Positions 4,190 to 39,764 of a DNA stretch of 40,149 bases are shown here, in pieces; the first letter of the stretch is position 1, and each line of letters begins with the position of its first letter. The notes beneath the pieces were generated by a model. It was not told where the DNA came from and ran no database searches. It was given only the letters and a program-made list of their open reading frames with translations. Source of the stretch: a virus; the IMG/VR virus record IMGVR_UViG_3300042485_002029, positions 1 to 40,149 of that record, one strand, 5' to 3'. Both the position numbers and the translations under genes were made by a program.

Positions 4190-5053
4190 ATGCAAGCAAT
4201 AGATTTGTTTTGCGGTATGGGTGGTGCTTCTCTAGGCATCAAGAATGCTGGATATGATGTAGTCGGCTTTGATGCTTGGAATCACGCTATTGTTTCTCAT
4301 AATAGCAACGATATGCCAGCGGTCAAGATGTCAATCACAGAGACTACAGATTGGATATCTGTTTTGGAAAAGATTGGCATAAAGCCTGGAATTGATTTGC
4401 TGTGGGCGAGTCCTCCATGCCAGCCGTTCTCTCAGGCTAATGGTGGTGCTAAGAGTGTTGATGATTCCAGAGATGGATTCCCTGCCACTATTTCTGCAAT
4501 TAAACAATTGGTTCCAAGACTTGTCGTTATTGAGAATGTAAAAGGTTTGGTGTCAAAGAATAACCTTGTTCATTTTAATAAATATGTCAAGCAGATTGAA
4601 GAGTTGGGTTACTCTGTAAAATGGGAAGTGCTGGATGCTTCTGATTATGGAATACCTCAATCAAGGAAGCGTTGTTTTATGGTTGCAAGGGCTGATTTTG
4701 CAGAACCTGTTTTCCCTGAAAAGAATCCCAACAAGATCACTATGGCTAAAGCATTGAAAAGGCATGACATTCCCCATTGGGCACATCAGCGCCCCTCTAC
4801 GACGATTGTAGGGTCATTTAAGCCCGAAATGGTTGCTCCCCCAACATGGCGTAAACCTGGTGATGGACCAAGACAGAATCAACCCGATGCGATTTTGATT
4901 ACTTTAGAAGAGGCATTGATTTTACAAGGGTTCCCTAAGAAATATACTGTGAGTGGACCAAAGACTGCACAATGGCTTCAGGTCGGGAATGCAGTTCCAC
5001 CAAAAATGGCTCAACTATTAACGGAGGCTAACAAGCAACATGAAAAGAAATGA
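4190..5053 (+). CDS. dcm-like: DNA (cytosine-5-)-methyltransferase
   Basis: 287 residues. All main C5-methyltransferase motifs are visible: motif I DLFCGMGGASLGI (5-17), motif IV SPPCQPFSQ with catalytic C77, motif VI VIENVKGL (E115), motif VIII QSRKRCFMVA, and motif X QVGNAVPPKMA near the C terminus. The target-recognition stretch between VIII and X is very short, so the site is probably simple. No cognate restriction enzyme is adjacent, so self-protection against host restriction is the likely role. Its last 14 bases overlap the next gene. Confidence 0.88.
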   Translation: MQAIDLFCGMGGASLGIKNAGYDVVGFDAWNHAIVSHNSNDMPAVKMSITETTDWISVLEKIGIKPGIDLLWASPPCQPFSQANGGAKSVDDSRDGFPATISAIKQLVPRLVVIENVKGLVSKNNLVHFNKYVKQIEELGYSVKWEVLDASDYGIPQSRKRCFMVARADFAEPVFPEKNPNKITMAKALKRHDIPHWAHQRPSTTIVGSFKPEMVAPPTWRKPGDGPRQNQPDAILITLEEALILQGFPKKYTVSGPKTAQWLQVGNAVPPKMAQLLTEANKQHEKK

Positions 5054-5475: not shown

Positions 5476-5620
5476 CATGCCGGATCTCTCTGACTCTGAA
5501 CAGATTTCAGAGCAAAGAAAGACTATTAAGTTTTGGATTGACCACTGCCATTCTCTAGAGGATAGGATTGAAGACCTGAAGTGCCAACTAAAAATGGCGG
5601 TTGAGAAGGACAATGCATAA
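5468..5620 (+). CDS. Hypothetical 50-residue coiled-coil-like protein
   Basis: Starts 8 bases before the previous stop and ends 8 bases into the deaminase gene. The C-terminal half (FWIDHCHSLEDRIEDLKCQL and on to MAVEKDNA) has heptad-like spacing of Ile, Leu and Met and is probably a short amphipathic helix. No function can be assigned. Confidence 0.5.
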   Translation: MVNMPDLSDSEQISEQRKTIKFWIDHCHSLEDRIEDLKCQLKMAVEKDNA

Positions 5621-6080
5621 AATTCAACCTCCTAACGAAAAAGAGAAGAAATGGCTTAGGTCTGTTGATGAATTATCTAAGATCTTTTCAACCTGCTCCA
5701 GAAGGCAGTATGCATCAATAATAGTAGCAAGCAATGGTCGTGTTGTTGGTATGGGTTACAATGGCGCTCCTGCAGGATTCAAGCACTGCACTGATGGTGG
5801 TTGCCCTAGAGCTTTTACTGACGTTGAGCATGGAAGTGTCTATGACAACTGTGTAGCGATACACGCTGAGGCAAATGCTATTTTATGGAGCGATACCTCT
5901 GCAAGGCAGGGCGGAACTCTATTTGTTAATGGACCTCCATGTTTTAGTTGTGCCAAATTGATTGCAAATTCGGGGATCTCTAAGGTTGTTTTCTATCCCG
6001 ATCAAGAATACGCAAACATTACTGATATACTGATTTTTTTAAACAAAGCAAAAATAAAAATAGCGATAGGAGAAAGATAA
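5613..6080 (+). CDS. Deoxycytidylate (dCMP) deaminase
   Basis: 155 residues from the ATG at 5613 (AGAAGG just upstream). The zinc-site motifs are complete: HAE at 84-86 (zinc His and proton-shuttle Glu) and PPCFSC with C110 and C113. The N-terminal CSRRQYASIIV and GYNGAPAGFKHC blocks are typical of dCMP deaminases (ComEB family). The enzyme converts dCMP to dUMP and so feeds thymidylate synthesis during phage replication. It sits with DNA-metabolism genes. No thymidylate synthase is in the window. Confidence 0.88.
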   Translation: MHKIQPPNEKEKKWLRSVDELSKIFSTCSRRQYASIIVASNGRVVGMGYNGAPAGFKHCTDGGCPRAFTDVEHGSVYDNCVAIHAEANAILWSDTSARQGGTLFVNGPPCFSCAKLIANSGISKVVFYPDQEYANITDILIFLNKAKIKIAIGER

Positions 6081-33858: not shown

Positions 33859-33899
33859 GCGGGTGTTCAACGGCTGCTAAAGCGTTGATCACACCCGCC
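33859..33899. repeat. Stem-loop repeat SL0
   Basis: Arms GCGGGTGT and ACACCCGC; core GGCTGCTAAAGCG is a variant of the common CTGAAG core. Next to a degraded promoter and no gene, so perhaps a remnant cassette. Confidence 0.6.
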
Positions 33900-33959
33900 T
33901 AATAAGAAATAGAATTAGAATATGTATTAAAGATGAAAATAAGTTTATCCCCAAACCAT

Positions 33960-33998
33960 CGGGCGTTCAAGGCGCTTCAGCGCCGACGAACGCCCGCC
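33960..33998. repeat. Stem-loop repeat SL1 (inverted core)
   Basis: Arms CGGGCGTTC and GAACGCCCG; inner palindromic stem GGCGC-TTCA-GCGCC. The core is GCTTCAGC, the reverse complement of GCTGAAGC found in most other copies. Confidence 0.7.
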
Positions 33999-34007
33999 AA
34001 ATTGGGC

Positions 34008-34042
34008 AAAAAAAAAGGCGAGCCTCTCGGCTCACCTTTTTT
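34008..34042 (-). terminator. Terminator of cassette A
   Basis: On the minus strand GGTGAGCC, GAGA (GNRA) loop, GGCTCGCC, then nine T; also T-rich on the plus side, so it may work both ways. Confidence 0.85.
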
Positions 34043-34058
34043 CTTATTCTTAATCTTA

Positions 34059-34388
34059 TTATTTTTTGCGAGTAATAACGCAAGTGTTTTCATTATTCCA
34101 TGTCACACTTACGACGACATTCACAAGACCCGCAACCGTTGTCACACGGTTCCGCATCTTGGCGGTAAAAGCCTTCTGCTCGGCAATAGTGAGACCGTCG
34201 GGGATCTTGACCCACTTGATAGCCTTGCCCGCAGGCAGGGCAAGCAGGGCTTGACCGAGACCGTCATTGCGGTAAGGCTCACGACCACGCTTGGCGAGTG
34301 TGTGTGCGATATCCGCAATATCCACAATTTCAAATTCATTCTCATTCATTGGCTCCGCATTAGCGGTCACCTGTGCTTTGTTTGTCAC
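34059..34388 (-). CDS. Cassette A protein, leaderless, paralogue of cassette B
   Basis: 109 residues from a GTG at 34388, exactly six bases after TATATT; no ribosome site exists, and a longer frame from 34415 would start upstream of the promoter box. N terminus VTNKAQVTANAE is related to that of cassette B (VTDKAQPTAKAE). The body (FEIVDIADIAHTLAKRGREP, AIKWVKIPDGLTIAEQKAFT, VVVSVTWNNENTC) is very similar to cassette B. Predicted helix-rich start and a beta end; no known family. Confidence 0.68.
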   Translation of the reverse strand: MTNKAQVTANAEPMNENEFEIVDIADIAHTLAKRGREPYRNDGLGQALLALPAGKAIKWVKIPDGLTIAEQKAFTAKMRNRVTTVAGLVNVVVSVTWNNENTCVITRKK

Positions 34389-34394
34389 ACTATT

Positions 34395-34415
34395 AATATA
34401 CATATGTAATGTCAA
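34395..34415 (-). promoter_or_regulatory. Cassette A promoter
   Basis: TTGACA (34415-34410), nine-base spacer, TATATT (34400-34395), then six bases to GTG. Confidence 0.7.
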
Positions 34416-34454
34416 AAATGTATTAAATGTGGAGAAAAGTTAATAGCCAAAACT

Positions 34455-34495
34455 GCGGGCGTACAACATACGCTGAAGCTTGTTGCACACCCGCC
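34455..34495. repeat. Stem-loop repeat SL2
   Basis: Arms GCGGGCGT and ACACCCGC; core ACGCTGAAGCTTG. Lies upstream of promoter A. Confidence 0.72.
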
Positions 34496-34582
34496 TGTGT
34501 TGAAAGTTGAAAGAGGACTCAAACACAAACCTACTGATTAGATTTCATACTAAAGATGAATTAATTTATTGCCTCAAAATCA

Positions 34583-34621
34583 CGGGTGTTCAAGGCGCTT
34601 CAGCGCCGCAGAACGCCCGCC
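34583..34621. repeat. Stem-loop repeat SL3 (inverted core)
   Basis: Arms CGGGTGTTC and GAACGCCCG; inner GGCGC-TTCA-GCGCC as in SL1. Confidence 0.7.
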
Positions 34622-34630
34622 GTTCGGGGC

Positions 34631-34665
34631 AAAAAAAAAGGCGAGCCGATCGGCTCGCCTTTTTT
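34631..34665 (-). terminator. Terminator of cassette B
   Basis: A perfect 20-base palindrome GGCGAGCCGATCGGCTCGCC flanked by A-run and T-run, able to stop both strands. Confidence 0.85.
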
Positions 34666-34681
34666 CTCATTCTATTTCCTA

Positions 34682-35020
34682 TTACTTTTTGCGCTTAATA
34701 ACGCACTTATCTTCATTATTCCACGTAACACTGATAGTCACCGCTATTCCATCGGCAATAGTCTTAACACGATTACGCATTTTATACGTAAACGCCTTGC
34801 GCTCTTCTACCGATAAACCAGCAGGAATGGTTACCCACTTAATAGCCTTGCCTACTGGCAACGCTGTAAGAGCCTGAGCAAGCGCCTCGTTACGGTAAGG
34901 CTCACGACCTCGCTTAGCGAGGGTATGCGCAATATCCGCAATATCCACGATCTCAAACTCAAACTCATTCATTTCATTCTGTGCCTCTGCTTTAGCAGTC
35001 GGCTGTGCTTTATCTGTCAC
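34682..35020 (-). CDS. Cassette B protein, leaderless, paralogue of cassette A
   Basis: 112 residues from a GTG at 35020, six bases after TATATT. Most positions match cassette A across the whole length (shared DIADIAHTLAKRGREPYRN, KAFTYKMRNRV, SVTWNNED). Divergence is concentrated near the N-terminal linker and around GIAVTI. A tandem duplication that kept its own promoter, stem-loop and terminator. No known family; the conserved Trp/Asn end may be a binding surface. Confidence 0.68.
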   Translation of the reverse strand: MTDKAQPTAKAEAQNEMNEFEFEIVDIADIAHTLAKRGREPYRNEALAQALTALPVGKAIKWVTIPAGLSVEERKAFTYKMRNRVKTIADGIAVTISVTWNNEDKCVIKRKK

Positions 35021-35026
35021 CCTTAC

Positions 35027-35047
35027 AATATACTTATGCAACGTCAA
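35027..35047 (-). promoter_or_regulatory. Cassette B promoter
   Basis: TTGACG, nine bases, TATATT (35032-35027), six bases to GTG. Confidence 0.68.
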
Positions 35048-35086
35048 AAATATATTAAATATGGAGAAAAGATGAACCCTAGAACT

Positions 35087-35127
35087 GCGGGAGCACAAGT
35101 ACGCTGAAGCTCCCCTGCACTCCCGTC
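35087..35127. repeat. Stem-loop repeat SL4
   Basis: Arms GCGGGAG and CTCCCGT; core ACGCTGAAGCTCC. Immediately followed on the plus strand by a T-tailed terminator. Confidence 0.72.
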
Positions 35128-35167
35128 AAACGATTGCACAAACTTTTGTGCTGTATCGTTTTTTTTT
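35128..35167 (+). terminator. Plus-strand terminator after SL4
   Basis: AAACGAT plus GCAC pair with GTGC plus ATCGTTT, followed by a run of nine T. It faces right, opposite to the genes, and suggests a rightward small RNA containing SL4. Confidence 0.65.
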
Positions 35168-35222
35168 CTATCTTGGGAATACACTAAACTCCCCAAACTA
35201 TCTATGCTAGAAGCGTTGGGGT

Positions 35223-35248
35223 GATCCCCCCGCCGAAGCGGGGGGATC
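35223..35248 (-). terminator. UUCG-capped hairpin after cassette C
   Basis: On the minus strand GATCCCCCCGC-TTCG-GCGGGGGGATC, an 11-bp stem with an extra-stable UUCG loop but no T-run. The same hairpin occurs at 37591-37616. Possible T-less terminator or mRNA end protector. Confidence 0.65.
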
Positions 35249-35261
35249 GGGGAATGGTTGC

Positions 35262-35747
35262 TTATTCTCCGAGGTCTAGTTTATCCTCACCTATCCACTT
35301 TATATCTTCTTCTTGGTCTAGTAGCGCCTTGAATATTGCCCTAGAGATATTCTTCTCTTCTTCTGTTGGGATCTCTTTGAGTATTTCTTCAATGATCTCT
35401 AGTTTCTTCTCTCTCAGTTCCCAATATCTCGTATACCATTCTAGATACCGTGGATCTACCTTAGACAGTCTCTCATGCTCTTTTTCAGCACTTTTCAGCA
35501 TTTTTTCTTCTGCCGAGAGTATTTCGTCATTGCGCTTTATACCGAGTTCACCGCTTGCGTATTGAACGGTAATTTTGTAGACATGGGGTTTATCAGTAGC
35601 ACCAATAGCCTTAGTCAAGATAAAGCGTATCTCTGCGATCTGCCGTTTATCTGTCGGGGTTTGGAAAAACTTGGGCACCAATACTGTCTTGTTTGGCATT
35701 ACGTTCAACGCATCTACAAGAAACTTCATTTCATTATCTTCTAACAT
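35262..35747 (-). CDS. Cassette C protein, coiled-coil
   Basis: 161 residues with AAAGGACA four bases before the ATG, so unlike A, B, D and G it is translated from a ~38-base leader. N-terminal alpha/beta part (FLVDALNVMPNKTVLVPKFF, AEIRFILTKAIGATDK, YKITVQYASGELG), then a long charged coiled coil (AEEKMLKSAEKEHERLSKVD and WELREKKLEIIEEILKEI). No known family. Confidence 0.65.
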   Translation of the reverse strand: MLEDNEMKFLVDALNVMPNKTVLVPKFFQTPTDKRQIAEIRFILTKAIGATDKPHVYKITVQYASGELGIKRNDEILSAEEKMLKSAEKEHERLSKVDPRYLEWYTRYWELREKKLEIIEEILKEIPTEEEKNISRAIFKALLDQEEDIKWIGEDKLDLGE

Positions 35748-35785
35748 ATATTGTCCTTTATCTAGGTGTTACTGCTTACACTTAC

Positions 35786-35806
35786 AATATACTTATGCGA
35801 TGTCAA
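35786..35806 (-). promoter_or_regulatory. Cassette C promoter
   Basis: TTGACA, nine bases, TATATT (35791-35786); start codon ~38 bases downstream. Confidence 0.68.
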
Positions 35807-35845
35807 AAATTTATTAAACGTGGAGAAAAGTTAGACATAAGATCT

Positions 35846-35885
35846 ACTGGTGTTTAAGCTCGCTGAAGTTTCCTACACACCAGCG
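35846..35885. repeat. Stem-loop repeat SL5
   Basis: Arms CTGGTGT and ACACCAG; core CTCGCTGAAGTTTC. The stem bases differ from SL2 but still pair. Confidence 0.7.
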
Positions 35886-35895
35886 AAACAAAGAC

Positions 35896-35929
35896 AAAAA
35901 AAAGAGAGGGGGTCTTGCGACCCCCTCTC
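35896..35929 (-). terminator. Terminator of cassette D
   Basis: Minus strand GAGAGGGGGTC-GCAA-GACCCCCTCTC then T-run. Identical to 38154-38187. Confidence 0.87.
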
Positions 35930-35941
35930 GGGTGAACGGGA

Positions 35942-36262
35942 TTAGAACGGGCTAGGCGAAAGGCTCTCAATGAGAGCAATGAAGACCTCTTGAAGATCTT
36001 CATCCATGTCCTGCTGTTCCAGGACTTCCCGCATATGATGCTGGAAGACATCGTTGAGGTAACGCTTGCCCTTAGGACCGCTTCCTGCGATCCAAGAGAA
36101 TGCATCATCCAACATTTGTAAGATCTCATCCTGATCCATCCTGTCGCAACGAATGAGTTGAAACAAGATGTCCTGCTGAGAGATGGATACGGATAGGTCA
36201 AGTTGTGACACTTGACTTGAAGGGACCTCCGCAGATGCGGTCGGTATGGGCTGAATGCTCAT
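35942..36262 (-). CDS. Cassette D protein, leaderless
   Basis: 106 residues from the ATG at 36262, exactly six bases after TATATT. The first ~18 residues (MSIQPIPTASAEVPSSQV) are nearly identical to cassette G, but the rest is different: SISQQDILFQLIRCDRMDQ, then helices rich in Asp and Gln ending LIESLSPSPF. Helical, acidic, no known family. The shared start looks like a recombination junction or an N-terminal tag. Confidence 0.67.
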   Translation of the reverse strand: MSIQPIPTASAEVPSSQVSQLDLSVSISQQDILFQLIRCDRMDQDEILQMLDDAFSWIAGSGPKGKRYLNDVFQHHMREVLEQQDMDEDLQEVFIALIESLSPSPF

Positions 36263-36268
36263 ACTTTC

Positions 36269-36289
36269 AATATACATATGCGATGTCAA
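36269..36289 (-). promoter_or_regulatory. Cassette D promoter
   Basis: TTGACA, nine bases, TATATT (36274-36269), six bases to ATG. Confidence 0.7.
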
Positions 36290-36328
36290 ATGTGTGCTCA
36301 ATTTGGAGAAAAGTTAGACACAAGATCC

Positions 36329-36369
36329 GCCGGAGTTCAAGAGACTGAAGCCTTTCCTGAACTCCAGCG
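36329..36369. repeat. Stem-loop repeat SL6
   Basis: Arms CGGAGTTCA and TGAACTCCAG; core GAGACTGAAGCC. Confidence 0.72.
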
Positions 36370-36370
36370 A

Positions 36371-36405
36371 AACAACTACACAAACCTTTCTGTCGTATAG
36401 TTGTT
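36371..36405 (+). repeat. Plus-strand hairpin after SL6
   Basis: AACAACTA pairs with TAGTTGTT, with further partial pairing inside, then CTTTG. Same position relative to SL6 as the T-tailed terminator after SL4, but with a weak T-run. Confidence 0.5.
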
Positions 36406-36465
36406 CTTTGTATCGTGAGAGTATATTAAACATTTCCAACAGGTGCCCCTAAAAGCGTGGGGGGA

Positions 36466-36489
36466 ACCCCCCTGCCGAAGCAGGGGGGT
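36466..36489 (-). terminator. UUCG-capped hairpin after cassette E
   Basis: Minus strand ACCCCCCTGC-TTCG-GCAGGGGGGT. The loop matches those at 35223 and 37591 but the stem differs by paired changes (CTGC/GCAG). Confidence 0.65.
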
Positions 36490-36502
36490 CGGGGGGAATT
36501 GG

Positions 36503-36883
36503 TTAGGCGAAGCCGATATCTACGCCGTGTTGTTCTGCCGACTCAACCATATCGGCTATGAATTGGTAGTGACGGTGACCCTCTAGCAGGTGAAGCCTAG
36601 AGCGAACAAGAGCGGTAGATACGTCGCCTGAGTGCACCTTGGGTAACCCCATAGCACCCATAATCTCAAACAACGAGGAATAGGTTATGTGACCCTTTAC
36701 CTTTTCAAACTCGGTAGGGTAGAAGTCTACGTCCCAAGGCTCGTCACCGCAACCGTCACAGCGAGATCTGCCGTAATTGTAGTCCTCAGAGGAAACCCAT
36801 ACCAACGCACCGCAACCACCACACTTGTGGGGGGCAGGATCACACTTACGCAACACATAATCAGGAGAGATATTGACACCCAT
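36503..36883 (-). CDS. Cassette E protein, zinc-ribbon
   Basis: 126 residues from the ATG at 36883 (AAAGGA six bases upstream; an ATG at 36898 has no site). Residues ~18-51 hold CGGCGALVWVSSEDYNYG and CDGCGDEPW, two CxxC pairs of a zinc ribbon, followed by a helical C-terminal part (YSSLFEIMGAMGLPKVHSGD, HLLEGHRHYQFIADMVESAE). The zinc domain suggests nucleic acid or protein binding. About 52% G+C in a 60-base sample, higher than the left part. Confidence 0.66.
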   Translation of the reverse strand: MGVNISPDYVLRKCDPAPHKCGGCGALVWVSSEDYNYGRSRCDGCGDEPWDVDFYPTEFEKVKGHITYSSLFEIMGAMGLPKVHSGDVSTALVRSRLHLLEGHRHYQFIADMVESAEQHGVDIGFA

Positions 36884-36930
36884 TGCATTTCCTTTCATTA
36901 AGGTAGGTACTGTCGTTTCCCTACACTTCC

Positions 36931-36951
36931 AATATACATATGCGATGTCAA
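36931..36951 (-). promoter_or_regulatory. Cassette E promoter
   Basis: TTGACA, nine bases, TATATT (36936-36931); start codon ~47 bases downstream. Confidence 0.68.
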
Positions 36952-36990
36952 AAATGTATTAAATATGGAGAAAAGTTAGACACAAGATCT

Positions 36991-37030
36991 ACTGGCGTAA
37001 AAGCTCGCTGAAGCAACCTATACACCAGTC
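36991..37030. repeat. Stem-loop repeat SL7
   Basis: Arms CTGGCGT and ACACCAG (one mismatch); core CTCGCTGAAGCAAC. Confidence 0.68.
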
Positions 37031-37041
37031 AAAACAGAGAC

Positions 37042-37074
37042 AAAAAAAAGGAGGAGCCTTTCGGCTCCCCCTTT
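37042..37074 (-). terminator. Terminator of cassette F
   Basis: Minus strand AAAGGGGGAGCC-GAAA-GGCTCCTCC then T-run (one mismatch). Confidence 0.83.
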
Positions 37075-37121
37075 GTATGACCCTGCTGGATATGTGGCAG
37101 GTCTCCCGATATGTCCTATCT

Positions 37122-37343
37122 CTAGGCTTTTTGCTCTTCAAGCATTGCAACGACGACTTCTTGGATAAGTTCCATGTCATCTTGGGCAAACTTGAAGATC
37201 TCAATGACACGAAGAAGGAGTTCTTCGTAATCACCGAGACTGAATGACTCCTCAATCAGTTGCTTCACCACAATGTACGTGACATTGTGCTGACGCGGGC
37301 GACTGAGGATCTCATTCACAACAGGGGCGATGGGGCTGTCCAT
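37122..37343 (-). CDS. Cassette F protein, small acidic helical
   Basis: 73 residues from the ATG at 37343, five bases after GGAGG (strong AAAGGAGG). Mostly helical: IAPVVNEILSRPRQHNVTYI, EESFSLGDYEELLLRVIEIF, DMELIQEVVVAMLEEQKA. Strongly acidic. No known family. Confidence 0.65.
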   Translation of the reverse strand: MDSPIAPVVNEILSRPRQHNVTYIVVKQLIEESFSLGDYEELLLRVIEIFKFAQDDMELIQEVVVAMLEEQKA

Positions 37344-37395
37344 GTTCACCTCCTTTCATTCCCGTAAGGTAGGCACTCTCTCTCCTACCTTTACA

Positions 37396-37416
37396 ACTAT
37401 ACATATGCGATGTCAA
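37396..37416 (-). promoter_or_regulatory. Cassette F promoter
   Basis: TTGACA, nine bases, TATAGT (37401-37396); long leader with strong ribosome site. Confidence 0.66.
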
Positions 37417-37455
37417 ATACGTATTAAATTTGGATAAAAGATGAACCCCATATCA

Positions 37456-37495
37456 GCCGGAGTACAAGTACGCTGAAGCATCCCGTACTCCAGCG
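37456..37495. repeat. Stem-loop repeat SL8
   Basis: Arms GGAGTAC and GTACTCC; core GTACGCTGAAGCATC. Confidence 0.72.
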
Positions 37496-37497
37496 AG

Positions 37498-37530
37498 ACG
37501 ACTACACAAACCTTTCGGTCGTGTAGTTGT
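37498..37530 (+). repeat. Plus-strand hairpin after SL8
   Basis: ACGACTACAC pairs with GTGTAGTTGT, followed by TCTTTG. Homologous to 36371-36405. Confidence 0.5.
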
Positions 37531-37590
37531 TCTTTGTGTTGTGAGAATCTATTAAACATTCCCAGCAGGTAGCCCTAAAAGCGTTGGGGT

Positions 37591-37616
37591 GATCCCCCCG
37601 CCGAAGCGGGGGGATC
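37591..37616 (-). terminator. UUCG-capped hairpin after cassette G
   Basis: Identical to the hairpin at 35223-35248 (GATCCCCCCGC-TTCG-GCGGGGGGATC on the minus strand). Confidence 0.67.
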
Positions 37617-37630
37617 GGGGGGATCGTGAC

Positions 37631-37942
37631 CTAATCAGGGCTGTATTGGCAGCTCTCATCATTGCGGATAACCGCAGTCACGAACATCTCAAAATGGCGG
37701 GCATCAGCGCCAAGTGAGAACAACTGAGCGTAAATACGCTTGATGTGCATTTTCTCCCCGCCGTTATACAGCGAGTATTCATCAAGATAGGTATTTAGAT
37801 CAGCACGGGTATCCGTGTAATCGTAGAACCGCTCAAGTTTCTCAAACCATTGTGCGGTCATATCCAATACGGGTATCTCAGGGTTGGTTACCTGAGTTGA
37901 AGGAACCTCCGCAGAAGCGGTCGGCATGGGCTGAATGCTCAT
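37631..37942 (-). CDS. Cassette G protein, leaderless
   Basis: 103 residues from the ATG at 37942, six bases after TATATT. Begins MSIQPMPTASAEVPSTQV, shared with cassette D, then an unrelated body: FEKLERFYDYTDTRADLNTY, MHIKRIYAQLFSLGADARHF, FVTAVIRNDESCQYSPD. Mixed helical; no known family. Confidence 0.67.
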   Translation of the reverse strand: MSIQPMPTASAEVPSTQVTNPEIPVLDMTAQWFEKLERFYDYTDTRADLNTYLDEYSLYNGGEKMHIKRIYAQLFSLGADARHFEMFVTAVIRNDESCQYSPD

Positions 37943-37948
37943 ATAAAC

Positions 37949-37969
37949 AATATACTAATGCGATGTCAA
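37949..37969 (-). promoter_or_regulatory. Cassette G promoter
   Basis: TTGACA, nine bases, TATATT (37954-37949), six bases to ATG. Confidence 0.7.
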
Positions 37970-38008
37970 ATATTTACTAAATATGGAGAAAAGATGAACC
38001 CTATATCC

Positions 38009-38051
38009 GCCGGAGTACAAAGTGTCTGAAGACTTCCTCTGCACTCCAGCG
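38009..38051. repeat. Stem-loop repeat SL9
   Basis: Arms CCGGAGT and ACTCCAG; core GTGTCTGAAGACTTC. Confidence 0.7.
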
Positions 38052-38153
38052 AAACCCTTTGCCGAAACTTCGGGGTTATTGCATTCCCTTGTGTGTTGAG
38101 AGAGCATATTAAAGAAACCAACATAGGTCTACCCCAATGGCTTGGTGTTAGGC

Positions 38154-38187
38154 AAAAAAAAGAGAGGGGGTCTTGCGACCCCCTCTC
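38154..38187 (-). terminator. Terminator of cassette H
   Basis: Exact copy of 35896-35929: GAGAGGGGGTC-GCAA-GACCCCCTCTC and T-run on the minus strand. Confidence 0.87.
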
Positions 38188-38192
38188 GGGTA

Positions 38193-38558
38193 TTACTTGC
38201 TGTGTCGGGTTTCCCATAACACTTGGTTCAGTTCATTCTCCATCTGATCCCATATCTCACCACGATGAAACAACTCTCTAGCCGGCTGAAACGCTAGGCA
38301 AGCGCTCAAGAATATGACCGAGAACACGATGAACAATTCCAAGCCTGCCCCGAGCGTGTTCTGCTGAACCGCCCAAGTCGTGAGCACAAGCCCTAGAGAG
38401 CAGATCGTGCCAAGTAGAGCAAACGCCCAAGCGCACTGCTTGAAACGATACCCTGCGGCATCTCTAGCCATCGTAGCGATCTGAACCTTGTCGTATTCAA
38501 AGTAAAGAGCGGGATCGGATAAAACACGGACAGAACGGAGATATTGTTGCTTATTCAT
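38193..38558 (-). CDS. Cassette H protein, two-span membrane protein
   Basis: 121 residues with GAAAGG upstream of the ATG. Two hydrophobic helices: CAWAFALLGTICSLGLVLTT (~42-61) and LFIVFSVIFLSACLAF (~75-90). They are joined by a short polar loop, with long charged cytoplasmic ends (EYDKVQIATMARDAAGYRFK, EIWDQMENELNQVLWETRH). This hairpin topology fits superinfection-exclusion or membrane-stress proteins, which is inference. Confidence 0.68.
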   Translation of the reverse strand: MNKQQYLRSVRVLSDPALYFEYDKVQIATMARDAAGYRFKQCAWAFALLGTICSLGLVLTTWAVQQNTLGAGLELFIVFSVIFLSACLAFQPARELFHRGEIWDQMENELNQVLWETRHSK

Positions 38559-38602
38559 AACTACCTTTCAGTAGAGATACTTCCTTTTCTCTCTACCCTT
38601 AC

Positions 38603-38623
38603 AATATACTAATGCGATGTCAA
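38603..38623 (-). promoter_or_regulatory. Cassette H promoter
   Basis: TTGACA, nine bases, TATATT (38608-38603); ~45-base leader with ribosome site. Confidence 0.68.
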
Positions 38624-38662
38624 ATATATGTTCAATATGGATAAAAGTTAGAACCAACCACT

Positions 38663-38701
38663 GCGGGTGTAACTTCTTGCTGAAGCCTCGTTACTCCCGC
38701 C
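38663..38701. repeat. Stem-loop repeat SL10
   Basis: Arms GCGGGTGTAAC and GTTACTCCCGC (bulged); core TTGCTGAAGCCTC. Last copy of the array. Confidence 0.68.
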
Positions 38702-39185
38702 ATTGACTCGGGAAACACAGGATTTGCAAAGAGAAAAAAAACAGCATGTAGCATTGTAAAAATATATACTCAAATTTTGCTTGAGATTGGGTCGGGGGGA
38801 AAGCTGTTAAAGTTTGTCTAAATTTGGGGTTGGGTAACGAAGCCGGGGGAATGGTTTTAAAAGTCGGGGGAGAAGCCTTGGGGAAGGTTTCAGAGGCTAT
38901 GGGGAAGTTTAAGAGAGTTAGGATTCTCATTGGAAGGGGAAGAGTCCACAAAGGGGCATTTAAAATTCGGGGTTTAAGGTTTCCTAGCTTTGTCGCAGAC
39001 AATGGTTATGGGTGGCAAAGATATGTATAGGGGTGGTATGGATATATACAATTCGGTATATTGGGGATTAGGGGTGGACTTGGGAAAACCCTTCGGGGAC
39101 CATGTTCGGGCGAAAGAGTCACCGGTATACAAACATAGATAGTCATAGATAGCCATAGTCAGCCATTAGTATTCGGGTCGCCCAC
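38702..39185. other. G-rich non-coding stretch
   Basis: 484 bases without a convincing gene. The plus strand has about ten runs of four or more G at irregular 10-40-base spacing from 38794 to 39100. A TATACT box at 38765-38770 could start a rightward transcript. Near 39133-39170 short ATAGATAG/CCATAG repeats occur. Frames on both strands exist but have no ribosome sites. Confidence 0.5.
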
Positions 39186-39764
39186 CTAAGGTATTTGGTT
39201 TAAGCCTTCACGGAAGTTGATGTTCAAAATGTATCTAAAGGGATGCTCAACGGGGTTTGTGCCGGCATGGAGTTGGGAACCGTCAAAGATTACAGCCCGA
39301 CCTCTTTTGGGTTCAACCCTTCCAACCTCGTTGTGTTCCTTATCAAAGAATATAGTTGGTCCGTCGCAATCGTTGATGTAGTAGATACAGACGAGATGGG
39401 GGATTTCTTTCCCGTCATCATATTTCATGTCCGTGTGAGGGATCTGGGGTTCGTATCCCAGGTATGGGGGATATGGGAATGTGAGGTTCACCTTTGCTCT
39501 AAAGAGAGTGAAGTCTCCGTATTTCTTTAGTAAAGCCCCGAAAACTGGAATGATGACCTCAAAGTGTGCAGAGCGTGTTTCTTCCCCATGCATATATAAG
39601 AAGTGAGTGAACTGCTCGGGGGCGTGGAACTTCTTCTCCAGCAGCCACTGATCTTTAGTAAAGATATGTGACTTGTACATCCGGTAAGCAAACTTTGGGT
39701 CTGACACGTAGGACAAGAAGGCTCGCTGCTCATTCGTTGTAATGAAATCATCAATAACTTCCAT
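39186..39764 (-). CDS. 2-oxoglutarate/Fe(II)-dependent oxygenase
   Basis: 192 residues. The iron ligands are H110 and D112 (IPHTDMKYDD) and H166 (QLHAGTNP); R177 in PFRYILNINF would bind 2-oxoglutarate. The pattern matches prolyl-4-hydroxylase-like phage oxygenases (2OG-FeII_Oxy family). They hydroxylate amino acids, bases or small molecules; the substrate here is unknown. GAAAGAAG precedes the ATG. It is transcribed leftward, separate from the cassette array. Confidence 0.85.
   Translation of the reverse strand: MEVIDDFITTNEQRAFLSYVSDPKFAYRMYKSHIFTKDQWLLEKKFHAPEQFTHFLYMHGEETRSAHFEVIIPVFGALLKKYGDFTLFRAKVNLTFPYPPYLGYEPQIPHTDMKYDDGKEIPHLVCIYYINDCDGPTIFFDKEHNEVGRVEPKRGRAVIFDGSQLHAGTNPVEHPFRYILNINFREGLNQIP

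Follow-up and report, generated by a model that had tools for sequence, protein, structure and literature searches.

Eight small genes with predicted control elements of their own in a viral fragment

The virus fragment IMGVR_UViG_3300042485_002029 was analysed over its full 40,149 nucleotides (nt), here called the window or W. On its minus strand, between 33860 and 38701, lie eight units, each made up in order of an upstream hairpin, a promoter, a small gene and a terminator-type hairpin. We call the control parts around a gene body the frame, and read the array from 38701 to 33860. Sixteen distinct related arrays of 4-12 units each were examined, some of which end at contig edges. Sequence comparison of these arrays reveals frames that change in concert within a genome, turnover of whole units, and exchange of gene bodies. 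F1 denotes the protein family of window genes A and B; F2, F7 and so on are other cassette families. The features in the window, in reading order and with lengths in amino acids (aa), are as follows.

38762-38778, minus: array head element AAAATTTGAGTATATAT, one copy in each array, 142-151 nt before the promoter of the first unit
38662-38701, minus: upstream hairpin of unit H, the first unit (covariance model, 29.6 bits)
38603-38635, minus: promoter H, TTGAACATA box and TATATT -10 (consensus scan)
38193-38558, minus: gene H, 121 aa, no relatives; hydrophobic stretches suggest a membrane protein
38154-38187, minus: terminator H, GC stem and U-run
38010-38049, minus: upstream hairpin of unit G (covariance model)
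37949-37981, minus: promoter G (consensus scan)
37631-37942, minus: gene G, 103 aa, apparently leaderless, N-terminal tag in common with D
37591-37616, minus: GC hairpin after gene G, without U-run
37457-37493, minus: upstream hairpin of unit F (covariance model)
37396-37428, minus: promoter F (consensus scan)
37122-37349, minus: gene F, 75 aa
37042-37071, minus: terminator F
36992-37028, minus: upstream hairpin of unit E (covariance model)
36931-36963, minus: promoter E, nearest to consensus of the eight (consensus scan)
36503-36898, minus: gene E, 131 aa, without Pfam match; cysteine pairs suggest a zinc ribbon
36467-36488, minus: GC hairpin after gene E, without U-run
36330-36367, minus: upstream hairpin of unit D (covariance model)
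36269-36301, minus: promoter D (consensus scan)
35942-36262, minus: gene D, 106 aa, apparently leaderless
35896-35929, minus: terminator D
35847-35883, minus: upstream hairpin of unit C (covariance model)
35786-35818, minus: promoter C (consensus scan)
35262-35747, minus: gene C, 161 aa
35223-35248, minus: GC hairpin after gene C, without U-run
35088-35125, minus: upstream hairpin of unit B (covariance model)
35027-35059, minus: promoter B (consensus scan)
34682-35020, minus: gene B, 112 aa, GTG start, apparently leaderless, F1 family (AlphaFold2 model, pLDDT 83)
34632-34665, minus: terminator B, U-run on both strands
34583-34619, plus: inverted hairpin copy after gene B; the plus strand scores higher
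34456-34493, minus: upstream hairpin of unit A (top window match, 39.1 bits)
34395-34427, minus: promoter A (consensus scan)
34059-34388, minus: gene A, 109 aa, GTG start, apparently leaderless, F1 family
34010-34045, minus: terminator A, one stem mismatch, U-run
33960-33996, plus: inverted hairpin copy after gene A (covariance model)
33860-33897, minus: hairpin of a degenerate terminal unit without gene, adjoining a degenerate box (covariance model)

A consensus scan of both strands of the window returned eight minus-strand promoters matching at 38-43 of 43 positions, with every other site at 26 or fewer. After correction of start codons the genes encode, from H to A, 121, 103, 75, 131, 106, 161, 112 and 109 aa. 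The hairpin model finds the eight unit hairpins and three extra ones, at 33860, 33960 and 34583, and its positions agree with the hairpin coordinates of the initial annotation of this sequence. Of these three, the ones following genes B and A are inverted copies, and copies of this sort are also present in G005, G008 and G015. The annotation had described eight self-contained cassettes, and eight promoters, genes and hairpins are indeed present, but hairpins with a U-run, which we read as intrinsic terminators, follow only five of the eight genes (A, B, D, F and H). Those after C, E and G are GC-rich and lack the U-run. The gene bodies had been called unrelated except for A and B. Those two are paralogues at 73% identity, but D and G also have their first 18 codons in common, MSIQP(I/M)PTASAEVPS(S/T)QV. 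Four genes (A, B, D and G) appear leaderless, with a start codon placed 6 nt past the -10. The GC content of the array, given earlier as 52% against 37%, came out lower when measured in 1-kb windows: 42-48%, whereas the 20 kb on its left are mostly at 31-35%.

A lineage-specific promoter and a covarying upstream hairpin

In most genomes the promoter takes the form of a TTGAATACA box, 17 or 18 nt, and TAnnnT. The gap is fixed per genome, at 18 nt in W, G005, L128 and L135 and at 17 nt in G006, G008, G009, G015 and L133; further box variants occur in G007, L126 and L155. This is not a standard -35/-10 promoter with a 17-nt spacer. A sigma-70 reading by hand, with TTGACA as the -35, was rejected as it leaves only a 9-nt spacer to TATATT. 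The window promoter gave no match either as an exact pattern in viral contigs or with up to three mismatches in 23 relatives, and a position-specific scoring matrix trained on the window failed to detect the promoters of relatives, because each lineage has its own promoter version. A phage sigma factor was also rejected as the dedicated factor: no sigma-70 family match passed the cut-off, with Sigma70 r4 absent and r2 represented by just a sub-threshold fragment in the window.

Roughly 27 nt separate the end of the upstream hairpin from the TTGAATACA box. The threshold pairing score is reached by 77% of 109 units from 13 arrays, against 7.5% of random positions in the same arrays, and RNAalifold keeps ten pairs, nine of them with compensatory changes. 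At stem positions flanked by Watson-Crick pairs we counted 49 G-U against 12 A-C, the two being scored alike; therefore it is the array-sense strand that folds. Covariation and the excess of G-U suggest that the hairpin probably acts as RNA. Over 670 kb the covariance model matches in arrays only; it was trained on array members, so that the absence of matches elsewhere is the informative part. Alternatively, the hairpin could be a double-stranded operator or a cruciform by which a phage activator is held in phase with the promoter. The position of its 3' edge, 24-29 nt from the box in most units, would fit such an element, but the strand asymmetry of G-U over A-C is unexpected for a double-stranded palindrome, and we regard this alternative as unlikely, if still of some weight. 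Many units in the intergenic regions of the W, G006, G005, L133, L135 and G008 arrays have a second box of TTTAATACAC/TTGAGTATGC type upstream of the hairpin, which could be a second promoter transcribing it.

Downstream of the promoter, the first 40 nt of the predicted transcripts fold well, with a mean z of -1.71 compared with -0.68 within genes. Leaderless units in W, G006, L132, G007 and L155 carry a TAxAEP-type N-terminal tag before otherwise unrelated proteins, and the DNA of the tag encodes a stem-loop in which CCGC/GCGG covaries with CTGC/GCAG. A shared tag of 12-18 residues is seen at window 36187-36340 and 37867-38020 and in G007, L155 and G006; the tag is possibly a translation-start module rather than a feature of the protein.

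The head element AAAATTTGAGTATATAT is conserved at the array start in W, G005, G006, G008, G009, G015, L128 and L132. Used as the sole search pattern, it returned the known arrays and three new ones (L145, L155 and L164). Its sites include window 38762-38778 (minus strand), G005 14209 and G008 83786. Several genomes have one or two further copies, with two to three mismatches, close to the terminase region, and the head element may belong to a wider class of leftward promoter.

Turnover of whole units and exchange of gene bodies

Frames within one genome resemble each other more than frames of different genomes do, with a mean identity of 63-76% against 57%. Even where orthologues have 96-100% protein identity, their frames can differ as much as two random units of one phage. 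Each genome thus has its own version of hairpin and promoter, and the frames evolve in concert.

The set of units varies. F1 genes are present in two to four copies and always come last in the array, whereas other cassettes vary; one sub-group retains a discernible F7-F11-F3-F4-F5-F2-F1 order in which units are absent, added or moved. L132 and G006 agree at 89.5% until 13 nt past the first -10, continue into different first genes, and agree again from the hairpin of the F9 unit, one whole G006 unit being missing from L132. L145 matches G008 at 93.6% over 7 kb of backbone but holds one more F7 unit, inserted at the promoter, and G005 and G008 likewise differ by whole units with breakpoints in the frames. 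The initial annotation had proposed a modular locus that exchanges whole units and had named comparison with related phages as the check, with the same genes in fixed order and no exchange as the outcome that would speak against it. The relatives instead show that whole units come, go and change place, and that the breakpoints lie within the repeats.

Between the most similar phages, exchange chiefly affects the gene body, while the hairpin-promoter frame is resident and phage-specific. Units 2, 3 and 6 of L145 carry G008-type genes (97-99% nucleotide identity) beside hairpins just 44-55% identical to those of G008; in unit 6 the hairpin, promoter and leader are 91%, 100% and 97% identical to G005. 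In unit 5 of L145 a frame of G005 type (89-98%) encloses a gene with just 53% identity to its G005 counterpart. The reverse case is unit 3 of L164, a G008-type frame (96-97%) with a G005-type gene. Where G005 and G008 differ in sequence, frame and gene clearly side with different phages in five units, and in both directions; Fisher p values are 5e-22, 5e-30 and 6e-21 for L145 and, with the roles reversed, 3e-25 and 5e-8 for L164. These values are descriptive only, the sites being linked and the values therefore overstating independence. Since the frame stays resident, crossovers fall in the leader or start region and the gene end or terminator rather than in the hairpins; in the alignment of L145 unit 3 there are two, one in the leader/start region and one in the last codons/terminator. 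The earlier idea that repeated flanks let genes swap thus holds as to breakpoints in the flanks, but between the most similar phages mostly the gene body moves and the hairpins are not where crossovers lie.

Taken together, we think it likely that the locus is an expandable accessory-gene array with lineage-specific frames, in which genes are exchanged by RecA-type recombination and frames are kept uniform. Each frame would run from upstream hairpin through a 27-nt gap, TTGAATACA box, 17 or 18 nt and a TAnnnT -10 to the leader, gene and terminator, where the leader would be a 5' stem-loop or, in leaderless units, a tag that itself encodes one. Each gene would form a monocistronic transcript under separate control regardless of its neighbours, so that any gene body placed between leader and terminator would be expressed under the phage's regime. 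Because frames are alike within a genome, whole units could be added, dropped or moved by RecA-type recombination in co-infection; because leader, start region and gene end/terminator are alike between phages, a gene body alone could be replaced. Uniformity of frames within a genome may reflect gene conversion, or selection on each frame to fit a transcription factor specific to the phage, and with frames uniform the genes would form a shared pool and the control elements would be the phage's own. As agent of exchange we infer homologous recombination, which fits the RecA and RuvC encoded in the window and the lack of a recognisable tyrosine integrase in 10 records. A further step, which we put forward tentatively and would not yet favour, is that the frames serve as a lineage-specific expression key: circulating gene bodies would plug into private frames that co-evolve with a phage factor and the RNA hairpin. 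WhiB is a candidate for the phage factor in either reading.

Several points weigh against this interpretation, besides the linkage of sites mentioned above. All sequences are metagenomic, and promoters, terminators and transcripts are predictions. A single sub-group of four phages supplies the clearest cases of gene-body exchange. The fixed spacing between hairpin and promoter suits a DNA element better than an RNA one, and no transcription factor was seen to track the type of frame.

Three other explanations of the exchange bear on the same data. As in T4-like mobile regulatory cassettes, the promoter/stem-loop unit may itself move and take the gene along. Gain and loss of whole units with breakpoints in the repeats would agree with this, as would L164 and G008, which share gene and frame jointly for F2 and F1c. 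Separate histories of gene and frame in L145 and L164, and frames that remain genome-specific, speak against it, and we hold it to be quite unlikely. Tandem duplication followed by vertical divergence only, with seeming swaps due to rate differences or assembly chimeras, would account for the F1 copies, which are clear tandem paralogues, and every contig is indeed metagenomic. However, the nearest relative changes several times along a single contig, and L145 and L164 switch in opposite senses. The frames of L145 are 76-100% identical to G005 and are not copies of it, so a single misjoin would not suffice; this and the repeated switching argue against chimeras. Nor can rate differences give a 99% G008-like gene in a 97% G005-like leader, and we consider duplication alone improbable. 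An integron-like array, its hairpins being sites at which a site-specific recombinase inserts or excises cassettes, would match a folding hairpin in every unit, the common orientation and the cassette layout, but is largely refuted and very improbable, as crossovers lie in leader and gene end away from the hairpin, each unit has its own promoter where integron cassettes generally have none (PMC11014356), and tyrosine recombinase (PF00589) was absent in 10 records and found in 14 of 14 control genomes (serine recombinases were not searched).

Phage group, cassette proteins and known systems

In a Pfam search the window encodes WhiB, RecA and RuvC, and its terminase is about 39% identical to that of Streptomyces cluster BE phages. 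On the sequence evidence of RecA, RuvC, terminase and WhiB, these phages are kin to Stanwilliamsviridae (cluster BE) and, at about 39%, of another genus or family. The host would be a low-GC actinobacterium. Phage isolates from Ca. Planktophila, which are about 39 kb in size and encode a sigma factor, seem for that reason to belong elsewhere (PMC10202952). Terminase relatives number more than 300 in viral contigs. Mapping the window proteins on seven long relatives shows collinear genomes; WhiB homologues occur in all seven, and the array lies between a small rightward gene block and a 2-oxoglutarate (2OG)-oxygenase gene in six of the six whose records reach there. L120, the nearest contig at the oxygenase gene, stops just short of the array. 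The whole locus had no BLASTN match among cultured phages. In one cultured relative, Gilson, a scan of the part of the genome at 104-128 kb turned up no such array or frames, and any repeat only in 3-4 copies, one of which is a host-like promoter. F1-like genes also occur in L138 (G027:83000-99000), which is more distantly related, along with short repeats whose hairpins are of another kind; this could be an early stage of the array or a degenerate one.

Other window genes are of separate interest. A C-5 cytosine methyltransferase gene (4190-5053, Pfam) and a gene resembling deoxycytidylate deaminase (5601-6080) have no match in the seven long relatives and look recently acquired. The gene at 39186-39764 (minus strand) is a 2OG-Fe(II) oxygenase by Pfam, yet its top PHROG family is labelled DNA endonuclease V; it looks as if the label is wrong or that family mixed.

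No functional relative of the cassette proteins was found in Pfam, PHROGs or PDB searches. The window A/B protein as query found no close relatives, the F1 family is absent from 50,697 phage records, and PDB and Foldseek searches gave no PDB match for it. Its top viral structural match is an uncharacterised phage protein (TM 0.78/0.82), followed more weakly by DUF7609 proteins. A role in host takeover or counter-defence is plausible because of analogy, not homology, with archaeal viruses (PMC11065993) and SPO1 (PMC6873191). The array places small single genes under one shared regulatory sequence, as anti-defence loci do.

The nearest known concept is the T4-type PeSL, a promoter and stem-loop repeated around small accessory genes and thought to drive recombinational shuffling (PMC4503421, PMC3950731). 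Repeated promoter and stem-loop units with gain/loss breakpoints inside them are common to both. The present phage group is unrelated. Unlike PeSLs as described there, its array has a further hairpin, which covaries, is not a terminator and keeps a fixed spacing; the promoter is specific to the phage, with a gap of 17 or 18 nt, frames are homogenised throughout a lineage, and gene bodies are exchanged without the frame. In PeSLs the regulatory unit itself moves; here frame and gene have separate histories in L145 and L164 and frames are genome-specific, and we therefore do not class the array as a PeSL proper. Nor is this a host-like early promoter in a T4-type myovirus, the terminase being of cluster BE type (~39%) and the promoter non-standard. 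In HGTV-1 and HF2 a conserved promoter-containing repeat precedes many genes, with an inverted repeat in the HGTV-1 motifs; these promoters are archaeal, and in HF2 the repeats and their positions are strongly conserved in the genus rather than forming lineage-specific sets (PMC3950731, PMC8707807).

Archaeal viruses keep 3-12 anti-defence genes per genome under one conserved early promoter, with function tested there. As in our array, these are small genes standing singly, every one behind a copy of a common regulatory sequence, and that sequence differs from virus to virus; the text consulted does not describe a terminator/hairpin frame or gene-body exchange (PMC11065993). The SPO1 host-takeover module is likewise a cluster of small genes with dense promoters, acting on host functions, but mostly in operons, and the available portion of the report mentions no repeated hairpin frame (PMC6873191). 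Mycobacteriophage Cluster K ESAS/SAS and Cluster O 17-bp repeats are intergenic with inverted arms, and the ESAS consensus varies by subcluster. For neither do the sections available report a per-gene promoter-terminator frame or hairpin covariation, and the Cluster O arms are invariant (PMC3203893, PMC4351075).

Within the literature searched, the statement of the initial annotation that such a locus is not described for this group stands. What was not found described is a homogenised lineage-specific frame that stays put while gene bodies move, together with a covarying upstream hairpin at fixed spacing. It answers, at the level of sequence, how small accessory genes can pass between phages with their expression kept intact, the hosts of these phages being probably very abundant freshwater bacteria. 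The head element or the hairpin model alone detects the array, and can yield a catalogue of candidate host-takeover or counter-defence genes without known relatives, in parallel to promoter-guided searches in archaeal viruses.

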